A stretch of 34,984 nt of DNA from Candidatus Gastranaerophilales bacterium (GTDB lineage Bacteria > Cyanobacteriota > Vampirovibrionia > Gastranaerophilales > Gastranaerophilaceae): positions 1 through 34,984 of the forward strand of contig JAFQHZ010000002.1 in assembly GCA_017415185.1 (NCBI GenBank). Direction: 5' to 3'. The notes under the pieces were generated by a model. The model had not been told where the DNA came from. It saw nothing but the letters and a program-made list of their open reading frames with translations, and did not search any database. The position numbers were made by a program, and so were the translations under genes. Positions 3,430 through 34,984 of the stretch are shown here, piece after piece (within the stretch, counting starts at the first letter, position 1; each line of letters begins with the position of its first letter).

Positions 3430-4905
3430 ATGGGGTTTAATTTGTATAATTCAATTTATCCTATAAATATTAATTATCATAATCAATATCGCAAAGCCGA
3501 AAGCAAGCCTTCTGGTGCTCAGGATGCTGTGGATTCTGATGCTCAAAAAAATCAAAACACTTTTCCAAATGGCACAAAAGTTGCAATTGATTATACAAAA
3601 GGACAAATTAATATTTCCCAAGTTTTAACAGATTTTAGAAGTACTATTGTTGCAATTAATGCCCCTGACGATGTTAGAGACGAGGTTAATTTATATCTTA
3701 GTCTTGTTGAGAAAGAATCTTTGAAAGAAAATCCTTCTCGAGAAATCATCGTTTCAAATTTGAAAAATGCTTCAAGAATTTCTGATTCTTATATTTCTTC
3801 TGCTTTGAATAAACATTCCGATGTTGTTCAAAAGTGGATTGATACATTATTTTTGCAAAAAATAAACCTTAAAGCTGACCCAAACGAAATTAATCCTGAT
3901 TTTCAATTGGAATTTCCTCAAAAAGCGCAAGAAAGAATCGAAGCCCAAAAAATTGCCCAAGAAGAAACCGAGCCAGAAATTTCAATTGAACAAGAACAAC
4001 AACCAATCGATGTTGTTGAATTTGAGCCTGAAGAAATAAAAATTTCTGATTCAAGCGAAGAAATTAAAGTTGAAAATGAGTTCGAAATTTCTTCTCCTGA
4101 AGCGGTTGAAAAACCTCCTGTTGTTTCAAATGGCTTATTTGCTCCTGTTTGCGATGCAGACATTAAAGCAAGAGATTTATTTTCTCAAGCAAAAAGAATG
4201 CCTCAAACTAACCAAGGGGATATTGAAGCGATTAACCTTTTGAATGAGGCTCTTGGAGTTATGGCGCAGGATTCAAATTCAAATCAAAATATTAGAGCGG
4301 CAATTCATATTGAACGTGGAAAAATATTTGACAGTTACGATTATGTTGATTACGCTCTTCGTGATTATTATGAAGCAACAAAAGCCCAAGATTTCAATTT
4401 GAAAGCTCAAGCTCATTTTAAATCTGGTCAGATTTATGACGAATTTAGCGAATTTTATCCTGCTATGGATAATTATTTATCAAGTGTCGCATATAGTGCT
4501 GAGGCGGAAAATTCTGATGCTCAATCAAGAATTTTGTCTAAAATTGCAAGTTTATACACAAGACAATACGATATTCAAAATGCACTTGAATATGGAACAT
4601 TAGCAATTGAAACTGCAAAAGAAACAAACAACGATGCTTTGATTGCAAAAACATATTCTGCTGATGCGCAAAATTCACAATATCTTGGCGAAAACGATAG
4701 AGCGATTGATAGTTATAAAAATGCGCTTAGCGTTTTTTCAAGAAGCGATGAAAGTTTTGAAACAATGGCTTATAATTATGAACAGGCTGCAATTGTCATG
4801 AGGAAATTGGGAAATCATGCTAAAGCAGCGAAGCTTCAATTGAAGGCAAATCTATATTATCAAAAAGCCCAACTTCCGCAGGCGCAGTTGGAAGAAGTAA
4901 GTTAA
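3430..4905 (+). CDS. Tetratricopeptide-repeat protein with acidic central linker
   Basis: This 491-residue protein has no signal peptide and is probably cytoplasmic. Residues 1-60 are polar. Residues about 60-150 form a helical domain (VLTDFRSTIVAINAPDDVRD ... VVQKWIDTLFLQKIN). Residues about 160-235 are a Glu/Pro-rich linker. Residues about 240-480 are helical repeats with TPR spacing (A-x-x-x-x-x-G-x-x-x motifs, for example IHIERGKIFDSYDYVDYALR, AHFKSGQIYDEFSEFYPAMD and TYSADAQNSQYLGENDRAID). TPR arrays are protein-protein scaffolds and no specific partner can be read here. The ATG at 3430 follows GGGGA, with a TATAAT at 3409-3414. Its last 86 bases lie antisense to the end of aroB, and both reading frames look intact. 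Confidence 0.75.
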   Translation: MGFNLYNSIYPININYHNQYRKAESKPSGAQDAVDSDAQKNQNTFPNGTKVAIDYTKGQINISQVLTDFRSTIVAINAPDDVRDEVNLYLSLVEKESLKENPSREIIVSNLKNASRISDSYISSALNKHSDVVQKWIDTLFLQKINLKADPNEINPDFQLEFPQKAQERIEAQKIAQEETEPEISIEQEQQPIDVVEFEPEEIKISDSSEEIKVENEFEISSPEAVEKPPVVSNGLFAPVCDADIKARDLFSQAKRMPQTNQGDIEAINLLNEALGVMAQDSNSNQNIRAAIHIERGKIFDSYDYVDYALRDYYEATKAQDFNLKAQAHFKSGQIYDEFSEFYPAMDNYLSSVAYSAEAENSDAQSRILSKIASLYTRQYDIQNALEYGTLAIETAKETNNDALIAKTYSADAQNSQYLGENDRAIDSYKNALSVFSRSDESFETMAYNYEQAAIVMRKLGNHAKAAKLQLKANLYYQKAQLPQAQLEEVS

Positions 4906-17849: not shown

Positions 17850-20800
17850 TTATTTTTCTTCTTCATCATCATTAGTGTAAGTAGCTTCTGCTGCTGCGTC
17901 TAGGTCAACTTTAGCTGCTGCTGACATAATGCTTGATGTTTGATCAACTGTGTTGTCTGAAACTTTTGAAGTTTTTGAAATTTCAACTTGTTCTTTTGGA
18001 AGTTTGATGATATTGATGAATGAATCAATTTCGTCTTCTTCTGGTTCAATTTCAGGTAATTCAGGACAGATTGATTCAACTCTTGTAACTGTTCCTGGGG
18101 TGTCTTCAACTTGAACATCTTTCTTTTCGTAAACAAGTTTGAATTGTTCTTCGCCATTGTCGCCAAATGTGATTTCGTGTTCTCTGTCGATTGTTGTAGT
18201 AGTTGTTCTATCTACATAATCTTTGCCGTAAACAGTTTCATTATCTGTTTTAGAAATTACATATTCGCCTTTTTCTTCATCCCAGATACGAACAGTTTCA
18301 GAAGATTGTTCTCTATCTGTATGTTTGCCATAGTCAAATCCGTCTGGTTCTGGATCGTAGCCTAAGTTTGGATCCATATTGAAACCACCTTGGTCTTTAA
18401 CTGTGATTGTTGGCATAGAGCCATCTTTAGTGTCTTTGCCTGCGATGAATGCATCGTTTTTGTCCAAAGTTAATTTATCTGTGTAGATGTTTGTGATTGC
18501 AACTTTGTTGTCTGCTGCATTCAAATGAACTTCAGGACCTTCGCCTTTATCGATTTGTTCATCCCAAGAGTCATTTTGAGCTGTTAAATCAAGACCAGCG
18601 TGTGCATTGTCTGCATTTTTAACTGTTAAAGTAATGCTTCCGTTATCGTTGTTTTTAGGAGTTGTTTTGTTTACTTTTGTTTCAACGATAAGTTTTGTTT
18701 GATTGATGTCAAGAACTGTATCAGGAGTTGTTTTGTCTGTTACAGAGCCATCAAAGTCAACGCTTTGTGGGAATGTTTTAGCTGCTGCTGCAACGTCTGA
18801 TGAAGCTGTTCCTGTTACATCTTTTGTTGTTACATTGCCTTTAGCGCTGATTTTTGTAACTGTATCTTTTGGATTTGCAGTTGCTGATTTGATTGTTAAG
18901 TTGTTCATAATAACATCTCCGCCTTCTTGAGTTGTTGTGATGTTATTATTTTTAGCTTCTAATGAAGAATTAACAAATTGAATGTCGCCTTTTGTTGTGA
19001 AATTGTTAGCTTTGCCTGCAATGAAATCAACATTTACTGCTTTTAGTGAATCTTCAGAAGTGAAGTTGTTGTTGCCTGCTGCATTGAATGTTAATCTATC
19101 GCCATAAGTTAATGTAGGCATTGTTGTTTTTTCGCCGTTAATATCGCCTGCAAGTGAAACAATGTTCATATCTTCGCCAGCTGTTAAGTTTGAAGAATTG
19201 TCGATATTAACATTAGCTGCGCCTTGTGCGCCAAATGTAATTGTTTCGTAAGCTGTTACATTAACGTCTTTGCCTGCGATGATATTTGAACCATCTTTAA
19301 TATTTACAGAACCTTTTGAAGCTGTTAAATTAACATTTTCAGATGTTCCTTTTAGAGTTGAATTGTTTACATTAACATTTTTATTGTCTGAAGTTAATGT
19401 GATATTTTTGTTTGTAGCAATATTTGAGCCATTGATTGCATTAACGTTTCCTTGAGTTGATTTTGCGTTAATATTGTCGGCTTTGCCTGTTGAGAATGTT
19501 AAATTATATTCATAAGCTCCAGGTGTGCCATCATCAATGATATTGCCAGCATCGTCTCTTTTGAAGTTGAAGTTGTAGCCTGCAATTTTAGCAGTTGCAT
19601 TGTCAAATGTTAAGTTGCCATTTGTTTCAAGATTTACATCTTTAGATAATGCACCATTAACAATTGGAGTAAATGTTGTATTGTTTGCGATAGTTACATT
19701 GTTTGTGCCTTGTGTGCCATCGTTGTAGAATTTGATTTCGCCATAAGCAAGGCCAACATTGTCAACTTTTGTATCTGTTGCTTGAATTGATAATTTGTCA
19801 CCTGCAAGGATTAATGATTGATTTTTGCCATCTTTTAAATCACCTGATAAGATAACATCGCCTTGAAGAGTGCCATTTCCGTCAACTGATCTAATATCTA
19901 CATCGCCAGTTGCTATAATGATTGAATTGTTTGATTTAATATCGCCTTTAGAAGTGATATTAACATTTTTTGTTGAATTTGCAGTTAAAGCATTGTCTGC
20001 TTTAATTAATGAGCTGTTTACATCAACTGAACCAATACCTTGAATATCTGCATTGCCTTGAGCAACTGCTTTAGTGTTGTTGATTGTAACTTTGTCATTA
20101 GCATAAATTCTGATTGCGCCAGCGTTAGCACCTGCTTTTGTGCCATCAATAGCGCCAGCAGTATGAATTAAAGAATCTTTGATTGTGATGTTTTTACCTG
20201 ATTCGATATAAACTTCACCACCATTGTCTTCTCTTGTATTTTTGTCAGCAATTGTTGTGTTTTCTGTTTCTAAACGAGCATTGTCAACATTAACATCGCC
20301 TGTTGCAGAGATAAAAATGTTACCATTTTCGTCGTTGATAAGTTTTGTTGCTTTGATAACAGAATTGCTGATTTTAATGCCTGAGTTTTTGTTTGCTGAT
20401 TGATTTACGATATCTACGCTACCAGCTTTGATTGAAGTTTCATTTGCTGCAAGACCAGAGTTGTCGATTTCGATTTTTCTTTCAACATTTTTAGTATCTG
20501 CTGCAACTTTATATCCATCAACATAGCCGTTTGCAAGATATGTGAAAGTTACACCGTCAGCAGTGATTAATCTTACGTTTGAGTTAGAATATGCATTGTT
20601 TGGTGTAACATAGTTGTGGTTTTCGCCTGTTCTGATTAAAGAATCTTTGTATTTGATGTTGTCAGAAACAATTGCGATTGATTTATTTGGATTTGCATCA
20701 GCAAAAGAGCCATCTTGGTTAAAATGAGCGAATGTTGTACCATCTAGGACGATTTGCGTTTCACCAGGTTTTAATTCAATGCCTGCTTTTTCGAATGCAT

Positions 20801-21395
20801 CTGTATAATTTGAGTCAAATTTAATATCGCCATAATTTCTTCCTTCGCCATTTACTTTAGCAATAGGAGAAAGTTTATTTAAAACACCGCTTTGATAGTT
20901 TGCTAAGTCGCTTTCGCTCATTCCTTTAAGGTTTTTAGCACCTGTAAAGTCAAATGTTGAAGCTGTAAATGAGTTTAAATCAACGCTTGAACCTTGACCA
21001 AACATAATACCTGATGGGTTGATAAGAATAACTTTGCTTGTTGCAGCAAAAGAAGTACAAGCTCCTCCGCCTACGCAAGAATTTGTTAATTTACCTAAAA
21101 TTTCAGATTCTTGACCGCCTAAAACACGGTTAATTATTGTTTGAGATAGACCTGAAAACCCGAAGTTTACTTGTTGGGTGCCAGGTACATTGAAGTTATT
21201 CCAGTCAACTTGTCCAACATCGCCATTCACTTTTGAAGTGATATCAATGTCTAATTTAACGTTATTTCCTGAAATGCCGACATTGCCTGTTTTTCCAATC
21301 ATATCTGCTTCAGTAACAGCCATTGCTGCACCAGAAAATGATAGAAAAGCTAGCATAGCGGTAAATGCAGTTATTTTCTTCTTAAATTGACTCAT
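17850..21395 (-). CDS. Two-partner secretion exoprotein (filamentous-haemagglutinin-type TpsA)
   Basis: This 1181-residue exported protein has a signal peptide at residues 1-26 (basic MSQFKKK, hydrophobic core, cleavage after AMA). The TPS secretion domain follows: VDWNNFNVPGTQQVNF, then INRVLGG at about 88-94 and NPSGIMFG at 126-133 (the NPNGI-type motif). These are recognised by a TpsB transporter. A Cys pair (Cys107, Cys113) sits in an insert of this domain. The middle is a long Asn/Thr/Asp-rich beta-helix of degenerate repeats (KNVNVNNSTLKG-like). The last 230 residues are acidic and non-repetitive, with no anchor recognised. Longer in-frame starts (to 21461) lack a ribosome-binding site, whereas AAGGGA precedes the ATG at 21395. 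It is divergent from its probable transporter. It likely mediates adhesion, which is an inference. Confidence 0.9.
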   Translation of the reverse strand: MSQFKKKITAFTAMLAFLSFSGAAMAVTEADMIGKTGNVGISGNNVKLDIDITSKVNGDVGQVDWNNFNVPGTQQVNFGFSGLSQTIINRVLGGQESEILGKLTNSCVGGGACTSFAATSKVILINPSGIMFGQGSSVDLNSFTASTFDFTGAKNLKGMSESDLANYQSGVLNKLSPIAKVNGEGRNYGDIKFDSNYTDAFEKAGIELKPGETQIVLDGTTFAHFNQDGSFADANPNKSIAIVSDNIKYKDSLIRTGENHNYVTPNNAYSNSNVRLITADGVTFTYLANGYVDGYKVAADTKNVERKIEIDNSGLAANETSIKAGSVDIVNQSANKNSGIKISNSVIKATKLINDENGNIFISATGDVNVDNARLETENTTIADKNTREDNGGEVYIESGKNITIKDSLIHTAGAIDGTKAGANAGAIRIYANDKVTINNTKAVAQGNADIQGIGSVDVNSSLIKADNALTANSTKNVNITSKGDIKSNNSIIIATGDVDIRSVDGNGTLQGDVILSGDLKDGKNQSLILAGDKLSIQATDTKVDNVGLAYGEIKFYNDGTQGTNNVTIANNTTFTPIVNGALSKDVNLETNGNLTFDNATAKIAGYNFNFKRDDAGNIIDDGTPGAYEYNLTFSTGKADNINAKSTQGNVNAINGSNIATNKNITLTSDNKNVNVNNSTLKGTSENVNLTASKGSVNIKDGSNIIAGKDVNVTAYETITFGAQGAANVNIDNSSNLTAGEDMNIVSLAGDINGEKTTMPTLTYGDRLTFNAAGNNNFTSEDSLKAVNVDFIAGKANNFTTKGDIQFVNSSLEAKNNNITTTQEGGDVIMNNLTIKSATANPKDTVTKISAKGNVTTKDVTGTASSDVAAAAKTFPQSVDFDGSVTDKTTPDTVLDINQTKLIVETKVNKTTPKNNDNGSITLTVKNADNAHAGLDLTAQNDSWDEQIDKGEGPEVHLNAADNKVAITNIYTDKLTLDKNDAFIAGKDTKDGSMPTITVKDQGGFNMDPNLGYDPEPDGFDYGKHTDREQSSETVRIWDEEKGEYVISKTDNETVYGKDYVDRTTTTTIDREHEITFGDNGEEQFKLVYEKKDVQVEDTPGTVTRVESICPELPEIEPEEDEIDSFINIIKLPKEQVEISKTSKVSDNTVDQTSSIMSAAAKVDLDAAAEATYTNDDEEEK

Positions 21396-21769
21396 TATAT
21401 GGTTCCCTTTCATGAAAAAATTATTGTCAATCCATATGCTTATACATGTAATAAAAACCACGTAAAAGCATAAAATTTACACATACGATACTCAACTTTA
21501 CAAAATTTTACATTAAAAATTCTGTATTTCAATACTAACAGAAAAAAAATATTTTTTTTGAAAATATATAATATATATATCTATAAATATGTATGAATTT
21601 AATAAATATTAACAAATCCGCAAAATATTTTTCTTACTTTCTTTTTATAGTAAGATAAAAATCATCAATATAATTTATTGTTATATAATATTTAATATTA
21701 TATGATAGTATTGCACACTAGTATAATTGTGCGCAGTTCCGCAGTTAAAAATAAAGGAATTTAAGAAAA
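21396..21769. promoter_or_regulatory. Divergent tpsA/tpsB promoter region
   Basis: This is 374 bp of very AT-rich DNA without a gene. Toward tpsA, TTGAAA (21532-21527) and TAAAAT (21510-21505) on the minus strand are separated by 16 bp and form a plausible promoter with a leader of about 100 bases. Toward tpsB, TATAAT at 21722-21727 lies between GCACA and TGTGC arms (21713-21717 and 21728-21732), a possible operator. Long A/T runs (about 21541-21600) suggest bent DNA. No small ORF with a ribosome-binding site was seen. Confidence 0.45.
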
Positions 21770-23545
21770 GTGCATAACAAATTAAAAATCAACAAGTTAA
21801 AAATGGGCTCAATTGCTTTTGCTGCTTGTTTGGTATTAGGTTCAGGCGCAGTTTTTGCGGGTCCTGAGGCTGGTATTGGTATCAACCCTATGTTTGGTAA
21901 TTTTGATGCTGGGGTTATTGACCAAACAAATTTGCGTCAAATTAAAGACTATGAGCAAAAAGTTAGAGACGATAGAGAACAAGAACATCTCGAGCAAGAT
22001 ATCGAGATGAATAAAGAAATGAAAGACAAAATGAAAGATCTTCCAAACAAGGAAGTTAGCTTCATTTTAAATTCAATTCATATTACAGGAAACACTGAGT
22101 ACACCGAAGAACAATTGATGAATCTTGTTTGTCAAAAAGTTGGCGACGAAGTTACAATCGATGATTTAATCGGTATGGCAAATACAATTACTGAATATTA
22201 CCAAAAGAATGGTTATATTTCTACAACTGCTTACCTTCCTCCTCAAAAAGTTGAAGATGGAAATGTTGAAATCGTTGTTATGGAAGGAAAATATGGCAAC
22301 ATAACAATCGAAGGAAACAAATGGGCTAGAAAAAAATATTTAAATGCAACTTTCTTAAAAGACAAAAATATACAAGAAGACAAAGTTTTAAACGTTGCCG
22401 ATATTCAAGAATCTCTTCGTGAACTAAATGCAACAGACTATATTAAAGGCGCAGTTGCACTTCAAGACAATGAAGATTCCGAACAATATACTGATTTAAC
22501 TTTAAATGTTAAAGACAGATTCCCAATTGACTTTGACTTCCGTTTTGATAACCAAGGAAGAAGCTCTGTTGGTTTAAATAGATTTGTTATTTTTGCGGGT
22601 ATGAGCAATTTGACAGGTTTTGGTGATCAATTATTGTCTACAACATCAATTGCTAGAAGTTCAATTGGTCAAGGTGTATTTTATTCTGTTCCAATCGGCA
22701 GACACGAAACAAAATTAAACCTTGGTTATTCATATTCTGGAACTGAGCTTGATAGAGGCGAATTTAAAGATTTAAATGTTGAAGGTAAATCTCACAGTTT
22801 CTATGTTGATTTATCAAGAAGATTAGTTAAAACAGAAAACTATAAATTATATGGCGATATCGCTTTTGATTTAAGAAACACCGAAACAACTTTGCAAGGA
22901 GTTGAATTATATGGATATAGAACACGTTCTATTAAATTTAATTTGACAAATGTTAAAGACGATTTCACTGGTAAATGGTTTGCAAATTTAGGCATTGCAA
23001 AAGGTATTGATGTGTTTGGTGCATCTAATGACTATATGGGCGTTTATAATAGAAGAACTCCAACCAATAAAATGGTTAAATTGCAGGCTTCAGTTGCTCG
23101 TTTACAAGTTTTACCTTGGAGAATGATGGGTATATTCTCTGCTAATGGTCAATGGACAAACAGAAACGTTTGGTATTCTGACAAAATGCAAATTGGTGGT
23201 ATTTCATCAGTTCGTGGTTTTGAAGAAGGCTATTTCTTAAGAGACTATGGTGCTACTGCTTCATTAGAATTAAGAGCCCCTGTTCCATTCTTGAACAAAC
23301 TTCCTGGTAAATTAAGATTTATCGACGACTCAATCAGATTAGCTGCGTTCTGCGATGCTGGTGTATTTGGTGATTATGCTCGTGGCGTAAGTTCTGATTT
23401 TGTAATGAGCGTTGGTGGCGGTCTTGTTTTGAAAATGACAAGATATTTGTCAGGAAACGTTTATATTGGTGTTCCGATTGTTAATCGTCCTGATGACGCT
23501 TCTAACCTTCGTGTTCACTTTATGATAACTTCAAATATTTTATAA
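21770..23545 (+). CDS. Two-partner secretion outer-membrane transporter (TpsB, FhaC/ShlB type)
   Basis: This 591-residue outer-membrane protein starts at a GTG with AAAGGA upstream. It has a signal peptide at 1-30 (cleavage after VFA), a charged helical stretch (about 50-85), then POTRA domains (IHITGNTEYTEEQLMNLVCQ at about 102-121, EYYQKNGYISTTAYLPPQ, and VMEGKYGNITIEGN). From about 250 there are amphipathic strands of a 16-strand barrel, including the L6 lid motif VRGFEEGYF with its Arg and a terminal strand ending in Leu. Omp85-superfamily TpsB proteins secrete their cognate TpsA across the outer membrane, and here the partner is the divergent tpsA. A hairpin terminator follows. Confidence 0.93.
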   Translation: MHNKLKINKLKMGSIAFAACLVLGSGAVFAGPEAGIGINPMFGNFDAGVIDQTNLRQIKDYEQKVRDDREQEHLEQDIEMNKEMKDKMKDLPNKEVSFILNSIHITGNTEYTEEQLMNLVCQKVGDEVTIDDLIGMANTITEYYQKNGYISTTAYLPPQKVEDGNVEIVVMEGKYGNITIEGNKWARKKYLNATFLKDKNIQEDKVLNVADIQESLRELNATDYIKGAVALQDNEDSEQYTDLTLNVKDRFPIDFDFRFDNQGRSSVGLNRFVIFAGMSNLTGFGDQLLSTTSIARSSIGQGVFYSVPIGRHETKLNLGYSYSGTELDRGEFKDLNVEGKSHSFYVDLSRRLVKTENYKLYGDIAFDLRNTETTLQGVELYGYRTRSIKFNLTNVKDDFTGKWFANLGIAKGIDVFGASNDYMGVYNRRTPTNKMVKLQASVARLQVLPWRMMGIFSANGQWTNRNVWYSDKMQIGGISSVRGFEEGYFLRDYGATASLELRAPVPFLNKLPGKLRFIDDSIRLAAFCDAGVFGDYARGVSSDFVMSVGGGLVLKMTRYLSGNVYIGVPIVNRPDDASNLRVHFMITSNIL

Positions 23546-32152: not shown

Positions 32153-32707
32153 TTATATTGCGATTCTTTCGTTTTTGGAATGTAATATACTTTCCAGTTG
32201 TTTTCTTAATTCAATTAGACTAATGTCTTTTTGAGTTTCGGATTCAAAATTCTTAAATACGTCATCCGTAATCAATTGTAACATCAAGGCATAAGAAATG
32301 CTATCAATCTTTTTATTTAAAAATTTATCCATAATTTCCATTAAAAATGGATAATACTCAATTTTATAGCAAGAATTAACACTGACAATTGTGTTTAAAA
32401 GAACTCTATCATTTGTTTCTTCAAAAATTAAAGTTATATAATAATTTGCATAATTTATTAGTTTTTTTATGAAGCTTGTTTTGTTTTTGTTGTTCTCAAA
32501 ACAAATAACAAAATCATTATATAAATTATCATCGCTTGGAATATTTCCATCTAATTCCAAAGTAAGATAATCTTTAATAAAACCGCCAATAAGATTTAAA
32601 TCGTTATTGAAAATCTTTTTAAGTTTTAATATTGCTCTTGCTTCGTGCAATTCTGTGTTAAATTCTAGGAATTTAAAAATTTTTTCTGTTTGTATAGTGT
32701 AGTCCAT
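32153..32707 (-). CDS. Unknown helical protein upstream of obgE
   Basis: This 184-residue protein is predicted mostly helical and cytoplasmic, with no signal peptide, membrane segment or recognised motif. It is rich in Ile, Leu, Asn, Lys and Glu. Its TAA is immediately followed by the obgE ATG with no spacer, so the two are translationally coupled and may act together in ribosome assembly or stress control, which is inference only. The ribosome-binding site is weak (GTAGAA). It is separated from the upstream membrane-protein gene by 51 bases without a clear promoter or terminator. Confidence 0.65.
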   Translation of the reverse strand: MDYTIQTEKIFKFLEFNTELHEARAILKLKKIFNNDLNLIGGFIKDYLTLELDGNIPSDDNLYNDFVICFENNKNKTSFIKKLINYANYYITLIFEETNDRVLLNTIVSVNSCYKIEYYPFLMEIMDKFLNKKIDSISYALMLQLITDDVFKNFESETQKDISLIELRKQLESILHSKNERIAI

Positions 32708-32758: not shown

Positions 32759-33739
32759 TTAATTCCTATATCCACTTCCTGCTTTATAGCCTGAAACACT
32801 GTATAAAATTGGCAATGCAGGTTCTATCCATTTTAAACCTGATAATAGTGAAACCGTTGCAATGTCGTCTGTGTGTAGACAAACATCAAGTGCCTCTGGT
32901 TTTCTTTCTTTCTGTTCTGATTTTGTTATTGGAGCTATTAGCTTTTGTGAAATAAAATTGGCAATTTTAGACCCGCCAATTACTCCTGTTAAAATAATTC
33001 CAGACACCATGCCCACTGCTCTTGCTGTTTTTGAAGTTATGTTTAGTTTTTCAAGCAGACCTAATGCGGCTCCTGCTCCAATGTTGCACATAAATATATT
33101 TGCAAGATATTGATATATTCCTTCGTTAATTTTATCGGGAATTGTTTTTTTACAATCTTCTTTTGTCATGATATCAGCCGCAATTCCGCCGCTAATTCCT
33201 CCAATTACCGGCATTGCGCCGTATATTGATAAATATCCGATTTCAGAAAAAATATCTTTTGCTTTAATATTTTGTGGGTCTGGAATTAATTCATTAAATA
33301 ACTCTTCGCCATTTTTGTTTTGCATAAGTTCAAATGAAAGCTTTTTAATTTCTGATAATGATAAAATTTTGTTTTTTGCTTTTTCAAGTATTGGCGCAAT
33401 TTCTTCATTAATTGAATTTTTGTTCAAAAAATCTTTAATTAAATTTTCGTTTTTTGCGTTTATTTTTTCAAATGTTTCTAATGGTTCTCTTTTGACGATT
33501 TTTGATGCAATTTTTGGTGCAATCAATGCGCTTGCGATTGATGTTGCCATGATTATGCCTTTTTTAAAAATTTCTTTTTTGGCATTTTCTTTGTTTTCGC
33601 TTTTTTTAAATGTATCAATGGCATTACTTGTTAAAATAGCCCCTGCTCCAATTGTCATAATTGCTGGCATGGCTTTATCTAGTTTTGAAATTAATATCGG
33701 CTGGTCTAAAAATTTTCCTAATACTTTTAAATTATTCAT
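32759..33739 (-). CDS. Unknown glycine-rich membrane protein coupled to the DtxR/MntR-like regulator
   Basis: This 326-residue protein matches no family I recognise. Hydrophobic, small-residue-rich segments lie at about 24-41, 61-82, 166-190 (YGAMPVIGGISGGIAADI), 211-229 and 238-264 (AVGMVSGIILTGVIGGSKIA). Some are marginal as true membrane spans and resemble glycine-zipper helices that insert or oligomerise. A Lys/Glu helical stretch (about 84-145) and a C-terminal region with CLHTDDIATVSLLSGLKW follow. No transporter or ferritin motif is seen. It overlaps the regulator gene by 8 bp and lies in its metal-regulated transcript, so I infer a role in metal handling or the envelope response to metal. 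This is unproven. Confidence 0.65.
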   Translation of the reverse strand: MNNLKVLGKFLDQPILISKLDKAMPAIMTIGAGAILTSNAIDTFKKSENKENAKKEIFKKGIIMATSIASALIAPKIASKIVKREPLETFEKINAKNENLIKDFLNKNSINEEIAPILEKAKNKILSLSEIKKLSFELMQNKNGEELFNELIPDPQNIKAKDIFSEIGYLSIYGAMPVIGGISGGIAADIMTKEDCKKTIPDKINEGIYQYLANIFMCNIGAGAALGLLEKLNITSKTARAVGMVSGIILTGVIGGSKIANFISQKLIAPITKSEQKERKPEALDVCLHTDDIATVSLLSGLKWIEPALPILYSVSGYKAGSGYRN

Positions 33740-34100
33740 GGCTTTTTGTATATTCGTTTATTTTGTTAATTAATTCGTCGTCTATTACATGTTCGATTTT
33801 GCAAGCGTTTTTGTCTGCTAGTGTGTTGTCAATTTTTAAAATTTTAGTGAAAAATTCTGTTAAAATTTTGTGTTTTTTGACTGTCTTTTTTGCATACTTA
33901 ATTCCTTTTGGAGTAATTTTTATTCCACGTCTTCCTTCGTAGATAATTAAATCCATATCAGCCAGTCTAATTAATGCTTCTGAAACTGAAGGACGAGAGA
34001 TGTTAAATTTATTAGCAATGTCAATTGCTTTAATTTCTTTGTCTTGAGAAATTTTGTTGTGAATAAATTCTAAGTAATCCTCTAAGCTTGAAGTAATCAT
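33732..34100 (-). CDS. DtxR/MntR-family metal-dependent transcriptional regulator
   Basis: This 122-residue repressor-type regulator has a winged helix-turn-helix at about 22-65 (IDIANKFNISRPSVSEALIR) and a dimerisation/metal domain after that. Metal-ligand positions match the MntR layout: Asp8 and Glu11 (EDYLEF), His77 (KKHKIL), Cys100, Glu103 and His104 (ACKIEH). Asp8 rather than Met favours the manganese-type (MntR) over the iron-type (DtxR) site, while Cys100 is as in DtxR, so Mn versus Fe is left open. It lacks the SH3-like third domain, as in MntR. AAGGGA ten bases upstream lies within the operator arm. It is translationally coupled to the glycine-rich membrane protein and probably autoregulated. 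Confidence 0.93.
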   Translation of the reverse strand: MITSSLEDYLEFIHNKISQDKEIKAIDIANKFNISRPSVSEALIRLADMDLIIYEGRRGIKITPKGIKYAKKTVKKHKILTEFFTKILKIDNTLADKNACKIEHVIDDELINKINEYTKSHE

Positions 34101-34101
34101 T

Positions 34102-34147
34102 GTTAGGCTTCCCTTACGAACATGATTAATTGTAAGGGAAGCCTAAC
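34102..34147. promoter_or_regulatory. Perfect 16-bp inverted repeat: probable metal-regulator operator
   Basis: GTTAGGCTTCCCTTAC (34102-34117) and GTAAGGGAAGCCTAAC (34132-34147) are perfect inverted arms separated by 14 bp. The TTAGG/CCTAA ends resemble DtxR/MntR-family boxes. One arm lies in the promoter spacer and the other in the early leader, over the ribosome-binding site. In RNA the arms could also form a strong hairpin just before the start codon. Confidence 0.8.
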
Positions 34148-34157
34148 TAAATGTCAA
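34129..34157 (-). promoter_or_regulatory. Consensus promoter of the DtxR/MntR-like gene
   Basis: On the minus strand TTGACA (34157-34152), a 17-bp spacer and TACAAT (34134-34129) form a near-perfect sigma-70 promoter. It gives a leader of about 20 bases before the ATG at 34100. The spacer is occupied by one operator arm. Confidence 0.85.
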
Positions 34158-34208: not shown

Positions 34209-34984
34209 CTACCATGTGCAAACACCATAATATTCACAATCAAAATATTCGCTTTCATCCGAATTCAATGTTGTCCCGTTTTCTTCAAGGGCATTGAACT
34301 CAGCTTCTGAAATTATTTGTATTTCTCCATTAACTACTTTGGCGTAAATTTGCAAGAAGCACCCACCAACGGGACATTGGTAGTAATTGCCACTAAAGGT
34401 ATCTTTCGGGATATCGCATTCGGTTGTTAAAATTGCATTTCCGCTAACATCAAATGCGTTGCGAGTTGGTGCGTTATATGATTCAAAAAGAGGCGCTCCG
34501 CATCTACCAGAATAAGGTCTAGGGTCAAAGCCAAATTGTTCTTTAAATTGCTCTGTTGCAATATCATCTAATTCATCCTGGAAGGCAATATAATCATCAA
34601 TTTTTTGCATTGGGCTTCCAGGAGTTTCAGGTTCAGGTTCTGGAGTAGGTTCAGGTTCTGGTGTTGGCTCAGGTGTAGGTTCAGGAGATGGACTTGCTTC
34701 AGCTACAATATCGGTATCCGATTCATAAGCAATACCGCTTGAATCAATTGGAAGAATGAATCTATCTACACCTATTGTGTTTGGTTCTTCTTCTCCGTTT
34801 GTATCAAAGAGTAATAATCCTTGAGAAGCATTGCTTTGTTTTGTTGTTGTTTCTCCTGGAAATATTGTTTGTGCATTTGTTGTTTCAGAATCATATATTC
34901 CAATACAAGCACCATCTTTTAAATATACTGCCTTAGCATTTCTTGATGAATCTCCTGTAATGCAAAATGAAGTTGAAGGTACTA
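34209..34984 (-). CDS. Pilin-like surface protein with Pro-Glu-Thr linker, C-terminal part (5' end outside window)
   Basis: The frame is open from the right window edge to the TAG at 34209-34211 (257 residues). The ATG at 34610 is internal. The visible part starts with a globular segment containing FDTNGEEEPNTIGVDRF and ILPIDSSGIAYE, the same motif order as the left-edge gene. A (P-E-P-T)-rich linker of about 30 residues follows. Then comes a C-terminal domain with six Cys (GRCGAPLF, TECDIP, YYQCPVGGCF, DCEYYGVCTW). I infer a pilin-like or pseudopilin-tethered exported protein with a spacer-displayed disulfide domain. The N-terminal signal is outside the window, so this is not proven. A short gap separates its stop from the regulator promoter. 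No terminator hairpin is seen. Confidence 0.62.
   Translation of the reverse strand, partial: VPSTSFCITGDSSRNAKAVYLKDGACIGIYDSETTNAQTIFPGETTTKQSNASQGLLLFDTNGEEEPNTIGVDRFILPIDSSGIAYESDTDIVAEASPSPEPTPEPTPEPEPTPEPEPETPGSPMQKIDDYIAFQDELDDIATEQFKEQFGFDPRPYSGRCGAPLFESYNAPTRNAFDVSGNAILTTECDIPKDTFSGNYYQCPVGGCFLQIYAKVVNGEIQIISEAEFNALEENGTTLNSDESEYFDCEYYGVCTW

Follow-up and report, generated by a model that had tools for sequence, protein, structure and literature searches.

A probable autoregulatory operator of a DtxR/MntR-family regulator, laid over its own promoter in a Gastranaerophilales bacterium, leads to an undescribed protein family

The window analysed here, i.e. the whole stretch of 34,984 nucleotides from a Candidatus Gastranaerophilales bacterium, carries on its minus strand a gene for a DtxR/MntR-family regulator, a gene for a protein of an undescribed family (D326) whose start codon falls within the last codons of the regulator gene, and a gene for a 184-aa protein (Table 1). 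Upstream of the regulator gene lies a perfect 16-bp inverted repeat, the arms of which are exact reverse complements separated by a gap of 14 bp, and the minus-strand order of the elements is TTGACA-TTTA-GTTAGGCTTCCCTTAC-AATTAATCATGTTC-GTAAGGGAAGCCTAAC-A-ATG. Within a gap limit of 60 bp, the window contained no other perfect inverted repeat of 16 bp, 100 windows simulated with a first-order Markov model gave none, and the exact arm word was found at these two places only across the 1.87-Mb genome. Arm 1, which starts 4 bp past the -35 hexamer, occupies the 17-bp spacer between the -35 and the -10 and overlaps the latter by 3 bp (the TAC of TACAAT). Arm 2, which contains the purine-rich TAAGGGA, leaves one base before the regulator ATG at 34100. 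The initial annotation had described a perfect repeat of this size and gap on a TTGACA-17-TACAAT promoter, with one arm in the spacer and the other on the leader and ribosome-binding site, and the checked coordinates agree with this description. Its statement that the repeat flanks the -10 is right as to the position on the promoter, but not as to mere flanking, since arm 1 runs into the hexamer. Elsewhere in the window (17850-23545), a reading of the translations revealed a 1203-aa filamentous-haemagglutinin-like protein, divergent from an adjoining 591-aa protein that resembles a two-partner-secretion outer-membrane transporter.

Table 1. Features of the regulator-D326 locus and the basis of each assignment
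Feature	Position	Strand	Basis
-35 hexamer TTGACA	34152..34157	(-)	sequence; at least 5/6 matches, 4 bp to arm 1, in 63/70 related loci
Operator arm 1, GTTAGGCTTCCCTTAC, in the -35/-10 spacer (putative)	34132..34147	(-)	sequence, conservation, one-dimer IdeR/DtxR consensus
-10 hexamer TACAAT, TAC in common with arm 1	34129..34134	(-)	sequence; TACAAT in 51/63 related loci
Expected transcription start region	34121..34123	(-)	inferred from distance to the -10
Operator arm 2, GTAAGGGAAGCCTAAC, in the expected leader (putative)	34102..34117	(-)	second copy in 17/17 genus members
Likely ribosome-binding site TAAGGGA within arm 2, 9 nt from ATG	34110..34116	(-)	sequence; inference
DtxR/MntR-family regulator, 122 aa; metal site D8 E11 H77 C100 E103 H104	33732..34100	(-)	Pfam, alignment
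D326, 326 aa, all-helical, probably membrane, undescribed family	32759..33739	(-)	start overlaps regulator stop
184-aa protein, probable third operon gene	32153..32707	(-)	relatives downstream in genus

The conservation of the repeat was examined in two sets. The genus set comprised the window's genome and 27 others, and a regulator orthologue was present in 17. The strict word GTTAGGNNNNCCTNAC was found in 15 of the 17 genomes with the orthologue and in none of the 11 without it (Fisher p 3.6e-6), always at the regulator gene, and the remaining two genomes showed near variants. The other set consisted of 80 loci from a GTDB genome scan with D326 as the query, and hence selected independently of the operator, many of which were labelled Candidatus Gastranaerophilales or Melainabacteria; since some loci belong to the same genomes, the genus count and the 80-locus count are not independent. 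The regulator gene was located directly upstream of D326 on the same strand at 70 of the 80 loci, and a site preceded it at 66 of these 70, in two copies at 15 of the 66. At 63 of the 70 loci, an arm was placed exactly 4 bp past the -35 (at least 5/6 matches) with its last three bases within the -10, and the hexamers formed from the arm end were TACAAT (51 loci), TACTAT (7), TACATT (4), and TACACT (1). Every one of the 17 genus members had the second dyad, which agreed with GTAAGG...CCTnAC at 10-11 of the 11 positions counted and was separated from arm 1 by a gap of 8-18 bp, and arm 1 stood alone at most loci outside the genus. Exact identity of the arms was peculiar to the window's species (1/17 genus members), and the conserved feature is two copies of GTnAGG-N4-CCTnAC rather than identical arms. 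The arms had been expected to persist upstream of orthologues, as they do (15/17 in the genus with the strict word, 66/70 loci), and this conservation backs the earlier proposal of a regulator's own operator upon its promoter with two possible dimers. In L067, L052, and L065 (genomes G091, G105, and G069), a half-site had become GTTCGG and the opposite half CCGTAC or CCATAC, which looks as though the halves of the dyad changed jointly; two sites of this kind, directly oriented, are present in G091.

A crystallographic and binding study of Saccharopolyspora erythraea IdeR proposed the 14-bp TTAGGNNNNCCTAA, bound by a single dimer, as the one-dimer form for iron-dependent IdeR/DtxR proteins, next to the 19-bp operator TTAGGTTAGSCTAACCTAA (PMC8464063). 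Each arm is this one-dimer consensus with one base changed; compared with TTAGG-N4-CCTAA or the 19-bp double form, the word agrees with an IdeR/DtxR operator apart from that base, and symmetric copies exist elsewhere. The word had been called unlike the classical boxes, which is true of the 19-bp DtxR double box and untrue of the 14-bp TTAGGNNNNCCTAA. We attribute the one-base change to the promoter, because the end of arm 1 has to provide the first three bases of the hexamer (TAC). Were the asymmetry imposed by the -10, spacer sites should end in TTAC, which they did in 83 of 84 cases, and the symmetric GTTAGG-N4-CCTAAC was common among sites outside spacers. The arms would then appear inverted because their inner ends double as the -10 (arm 1) and as the ribosome-binding site (arm 2). 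For most of the genus, no purine-rich stretch other than the GTAAGG end of arm 2 stood at a suitable distance from the ATG to bind the ribosome. An AAGG end is, however, also kept in three members that have another purine-rich stretch downstream of arm 2, so the ribosome-binding duty is a likely, not a certain, explanation of the orientation of arm 2. One-mismatch matches in the window's own genome (C15:1030 and C21:28242) were both inside coding sequence, and a reversed control pattern outnumbered such matches (21 vs 4 per strand), so that no second target is claimed there.

The regulator combines an N-terminal winged-helix domain with a metal-binding and dimerisation domain, as is usual for the DtxR/MntR family, with matches to PF01325 (residues 1-60, 46.1 bits) and PF02742 (residues 63-118, 61 bits) above the curated cut-offs. 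It stops at 122 aa, without the C-terminal SH3-like domain of IdeR/DtxR. The primary-site ligands of DtxR/IdeR are M10, C102, E105, and H106. Set against these residues, the C, E, and H columns of the regulator agree and the M10 column is Asp. Five of the six MntR ligand columns (D8, E11, H77, E99, E102, and H103) are retained, the E99 column being Cys, and Cys occupied the column of Bacillus subtilis MntR Glu99 in 65 of 69 aligned proteins. The predicted metal site combines MntR-like with DtxR-like ligands. A distant second DtxR-like paralogue without the Asp8, Glu11, and Cys100 ligands was observed in L086 (G011), L087 (G007), and L085 (G085), and may be a relative unresponsive to the regulator's metal.

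Could the operator be the same and the regulator a true MntR sensing Mn(II)? Its nearest solved proteins were MntRs, followed by SloR and DtxR, and like B. subtilis MntR it is a two-domain protein with MntR-like D8, E11, H77, E102, and H103 columns. However, the Cys at the Glu99 column is shared by nearly all the relatives, the scores were well under both MntR equivalog cut-offs of NCBIfam (PRK11050, 79.2 against 153 bits; PRK03902, 69.1 against 138 bits), and the operator word differs from AAAATAATTTGCCTTAAGGAAACTCTTT, which B. subtilis MntR recognises at mntH (PMC9861239). The window's genome has no mntH; no match to Nramp, ZnuA/TroA, or Fur was found in it, nor was the FeoB C-terminal domain, and its FeoB_N matches were weak and fit general GTPases, e.g. 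the Obg in the window. Since the assembly is 97.5% complete, each single absence carries a small risk. The neighbours and additional sites in relatives also argue against Mn(II). In related families, feoA-feoB directly follows the regulator gene in G108, where the regulator gene and feoA are each preceded by a near-perfect site; feoB follows the regulator gene in G091 (then D326) and G105, and after a small gene in G106; and G045 has a full site before feoAB. A comparable arrangement is known from Porphyromonas gingivalis PG1042-44, where feoB1 adjoins a DtxR-family regulator (PMC10434189), as the DtxR-family gene does feoB in G091, G105, G106, and G108; unlike there, the phylum is another one, and D326 occupies the place of feoB in the window. 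DUF2023 genes in several genomes were likewise preceded by sites, and in G104 the cluster also includes flavodoxin. In Bacteroides thetaiotaomicron, iron starvation raised DUF2023 598-fold and flavodoxin 326-fold, and the DUF2023-flavodoxin pair is one of the strongest responders to iron starvation in Bacteroidetes (PMC10434189). Only about one third of the DUF2023 genes had a site, and several feoB genes in relatives had none nearby. Of the sites examined in relatives, some preceded feoAB, DUF2023, or D326 and the rest fell within coding sequence or at places without an assignment, none being seen before an Mn importer; of the Mn and Fe transport genes at which sites had been anticipated, it was only at some of those for iron (feoAB) that sites were seen. 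Taken together, the neighbours and the DtxR-like Cys suggest that Fe(II) rather than Mn(II) is the better reading, and a true MntR is unlikely.

There is also the question of how many dimers the repeat serves. Arm 2 might be a by-product of leader and ribosome-binding constraints, arm 1 being the only working operator. Arm 1 by itself is retained over most of the order, and the GTAAGG end of arm 2 also serves as the predicted ribosome-binding site, as this reading would expect. Nevertheless, the second dyad is invariably present in the genus (17/17), the three members with a separate ribosome-binding site still have arm 2 (11-12 bp from the ATG), and other genera and a DUF2023 gene likewise show double sites, which makes a single working arm in the window distinctly unlikely. 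Two dimers nevertheless appear inessential to the design, because most relatives outside the genus carry arm 1 alone.

The initial annotation had also suggested that the repeat folds in RNA and hides the ribosome-binding site, giving a second layer of control. The arms are fully complementary here, the ribosome-binding site is within arm 2, and a read-through transcript of the same-strand upstream gene (34209-34982) would include both arms. However, the predicted transcription start falls downstream of arm 1, and a transcript initiated there would carry arm 2 only; arm 2 is missing in most relatives; and perfect complementarity was observed in 1 of the 17 genus members, with the gap ranging from 8 to 18. 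The arm centres vary freely in the genus (TTTA, TATA, CTTC, and others in arm 1; CTTC, CTCT, TACC, and others in arm 2) without co-variation (43 of 68 pairs vs 41.1 when shuffled, P 0.26). These variations in centre and gap, together with the lack of co-variation, suggest that the perfection of the arms is a coincidence of two conserved dimer sites, the sites themselves not being coincidental, and an RNA hairpin is highly improbable. A mobile or repetitive element (REP or MITE), for which perfect inverted repeats are typical, was rejected as a practically negligible possibility, the word being confined to a single locus without a further exact copy in the genome and its position against the promoter being fixed to the base in relatives.

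We consider it very probable that a small DtxR/MntR-family repressor controls its own gene through this repeat, binding as two dimers and probably responding to Fe(II). Each 16-bp arm would form one imperfect dyad (GTnAGG-N4-CCTnAC) for one metal-loaded dimer, and the two dimers, with centres 30 bp apart, would cover the DNA from just downstream of the -35 to the start codon. When the metal, most likely Fe(II), is plentiful, the arm 1 dimer on the spacer and part of the -10 would block RNA polymerase, and the arm 2 dimer would add occupancy on the initial transcribed region. When the metal is low, the dimers would depart, and the regulator, D326, and the 184-aa protein would be expressed. Such a design would require arm 1 to finish in TTAC, as its last three bases open the -10 hexamer; arm 2 opens with GTAAGG, the likely ribosome-binding site.

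This arrangement resembles IdeR/DtxR systems in the arm core TTAGG-N4-CCT(T/A)A, the DtxR-family regulator, the Cys ligand column, and the linkage with iron genes. It differs in that two one-dimer sites lie 30 bp apart here, whereas two dimers are interleaved on 19 bp there, in the missing SH3-like domain, and in the one base explained by the -10. Streptococcus mutans SloR represses sloABC and mntH cooperatively from several adjacent promoter-overlapping sites, one of them over the -35 (PMC12096823). The dimers predicted here would likewise occupy adjacent promoter sites; in contrast, the SloR words are different, SloR senses Mn and its targets are transporters, whereas the present operator is fused with the -10 and the likely ribosome-binding site of the regulator's own gene.

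As judged from sequence, the operator belongs to a known type (DtxR/IdeR), and the lead that had not been anticipated is D326. Full-length D326 occurs in the same 17 genomes of the genus as the regulator, and in G059 and G043 the D326 gene has an operator of its own. Relatives of the 184-aa protein were found downstream in genus members with enough sequence, and the threshold applied gave none at the loci outside the genus. Hydropathy indicated about five to six membrane-length helices in D326, and the AlphaFold2 model was all-helical with a mean pLDDT of 91. No Pfam match was obtained for D326, and its relatives gave only scattered weak matches, none to FeoB; the FeoB GTPase, Gate, and FeoB_C domains were absent from D326. 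A sequence search for a solved relative gave none that was convincing, and a Foldseek search of PDB chains and viral models gave no match at E below 0.001. The best VIA-align Z of 6.1 (viral rhodopsin and membrane pyrophosphatase) is a level common for helical bundles; the missing fold matches do not prove a new fold. The invariant residues include D12, E206, N214, C218, N219, E282, D285, H289, D291, D292, and E306, and many relatives end in histidine-rich C-terminal tails (11.2% His vs 0.8% in the core), of which the window's D326 stops short. At L179, L186, and L201, where no regulator adjoins D326, a variant such as GTTAGGAGTGCCGAAC occurs 17-20 bp before D326, near its ribosome-binding position. 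At nine loci (L150, L160, L169, L172, L188, L190, L193, L200, and L202), a GTTAGG-N4-CCTAAC-like word lies just past D326 (near 4000), before an opposite-strand gene (in L172 desulfoferrodoxin by Pfam), and may serve as an operator or form the stem of a terminator.

Because of its gene company, namely the regulator, the sites, and the linkage, D326 may handle iron; that it transports metal is a guess. Full-length D326 was present in 5 of 11 FeoB-bearing and 34 of 53 FeoB-free genomes of the family in a hand tally, an anticorrelation too weak to argue that D326 replaces FeoB. No paper naming Melainabacteria together with FeoB was found among those searched. Since the window's genome gave no match to FeoB, Nramp, ZnuA/TroA, or Fur, D326 is a candidate new iron-uptake protein, and we tentatively raise the possibility, less likely than not, that it represents a new membrane family for the uptake of ferrous iron (or Mn) in the place of FeoB behind an iron regulator in Gastranaerophilales. 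If this is true, the D326 operon would be the repressor's only unit in that genome.

These results make the metal-regulon word of an uncultured gut lineage, a relative of Cyanobacteria, readable, and give an example of an operator, a -10, and a likely ribosome-binding site sharing bases. The word leads to a widely conserved unnamed protein family directly behind an iron-type repressor, and D326 makes iron uptake testable in these bacteria, many of which are without FeoB.
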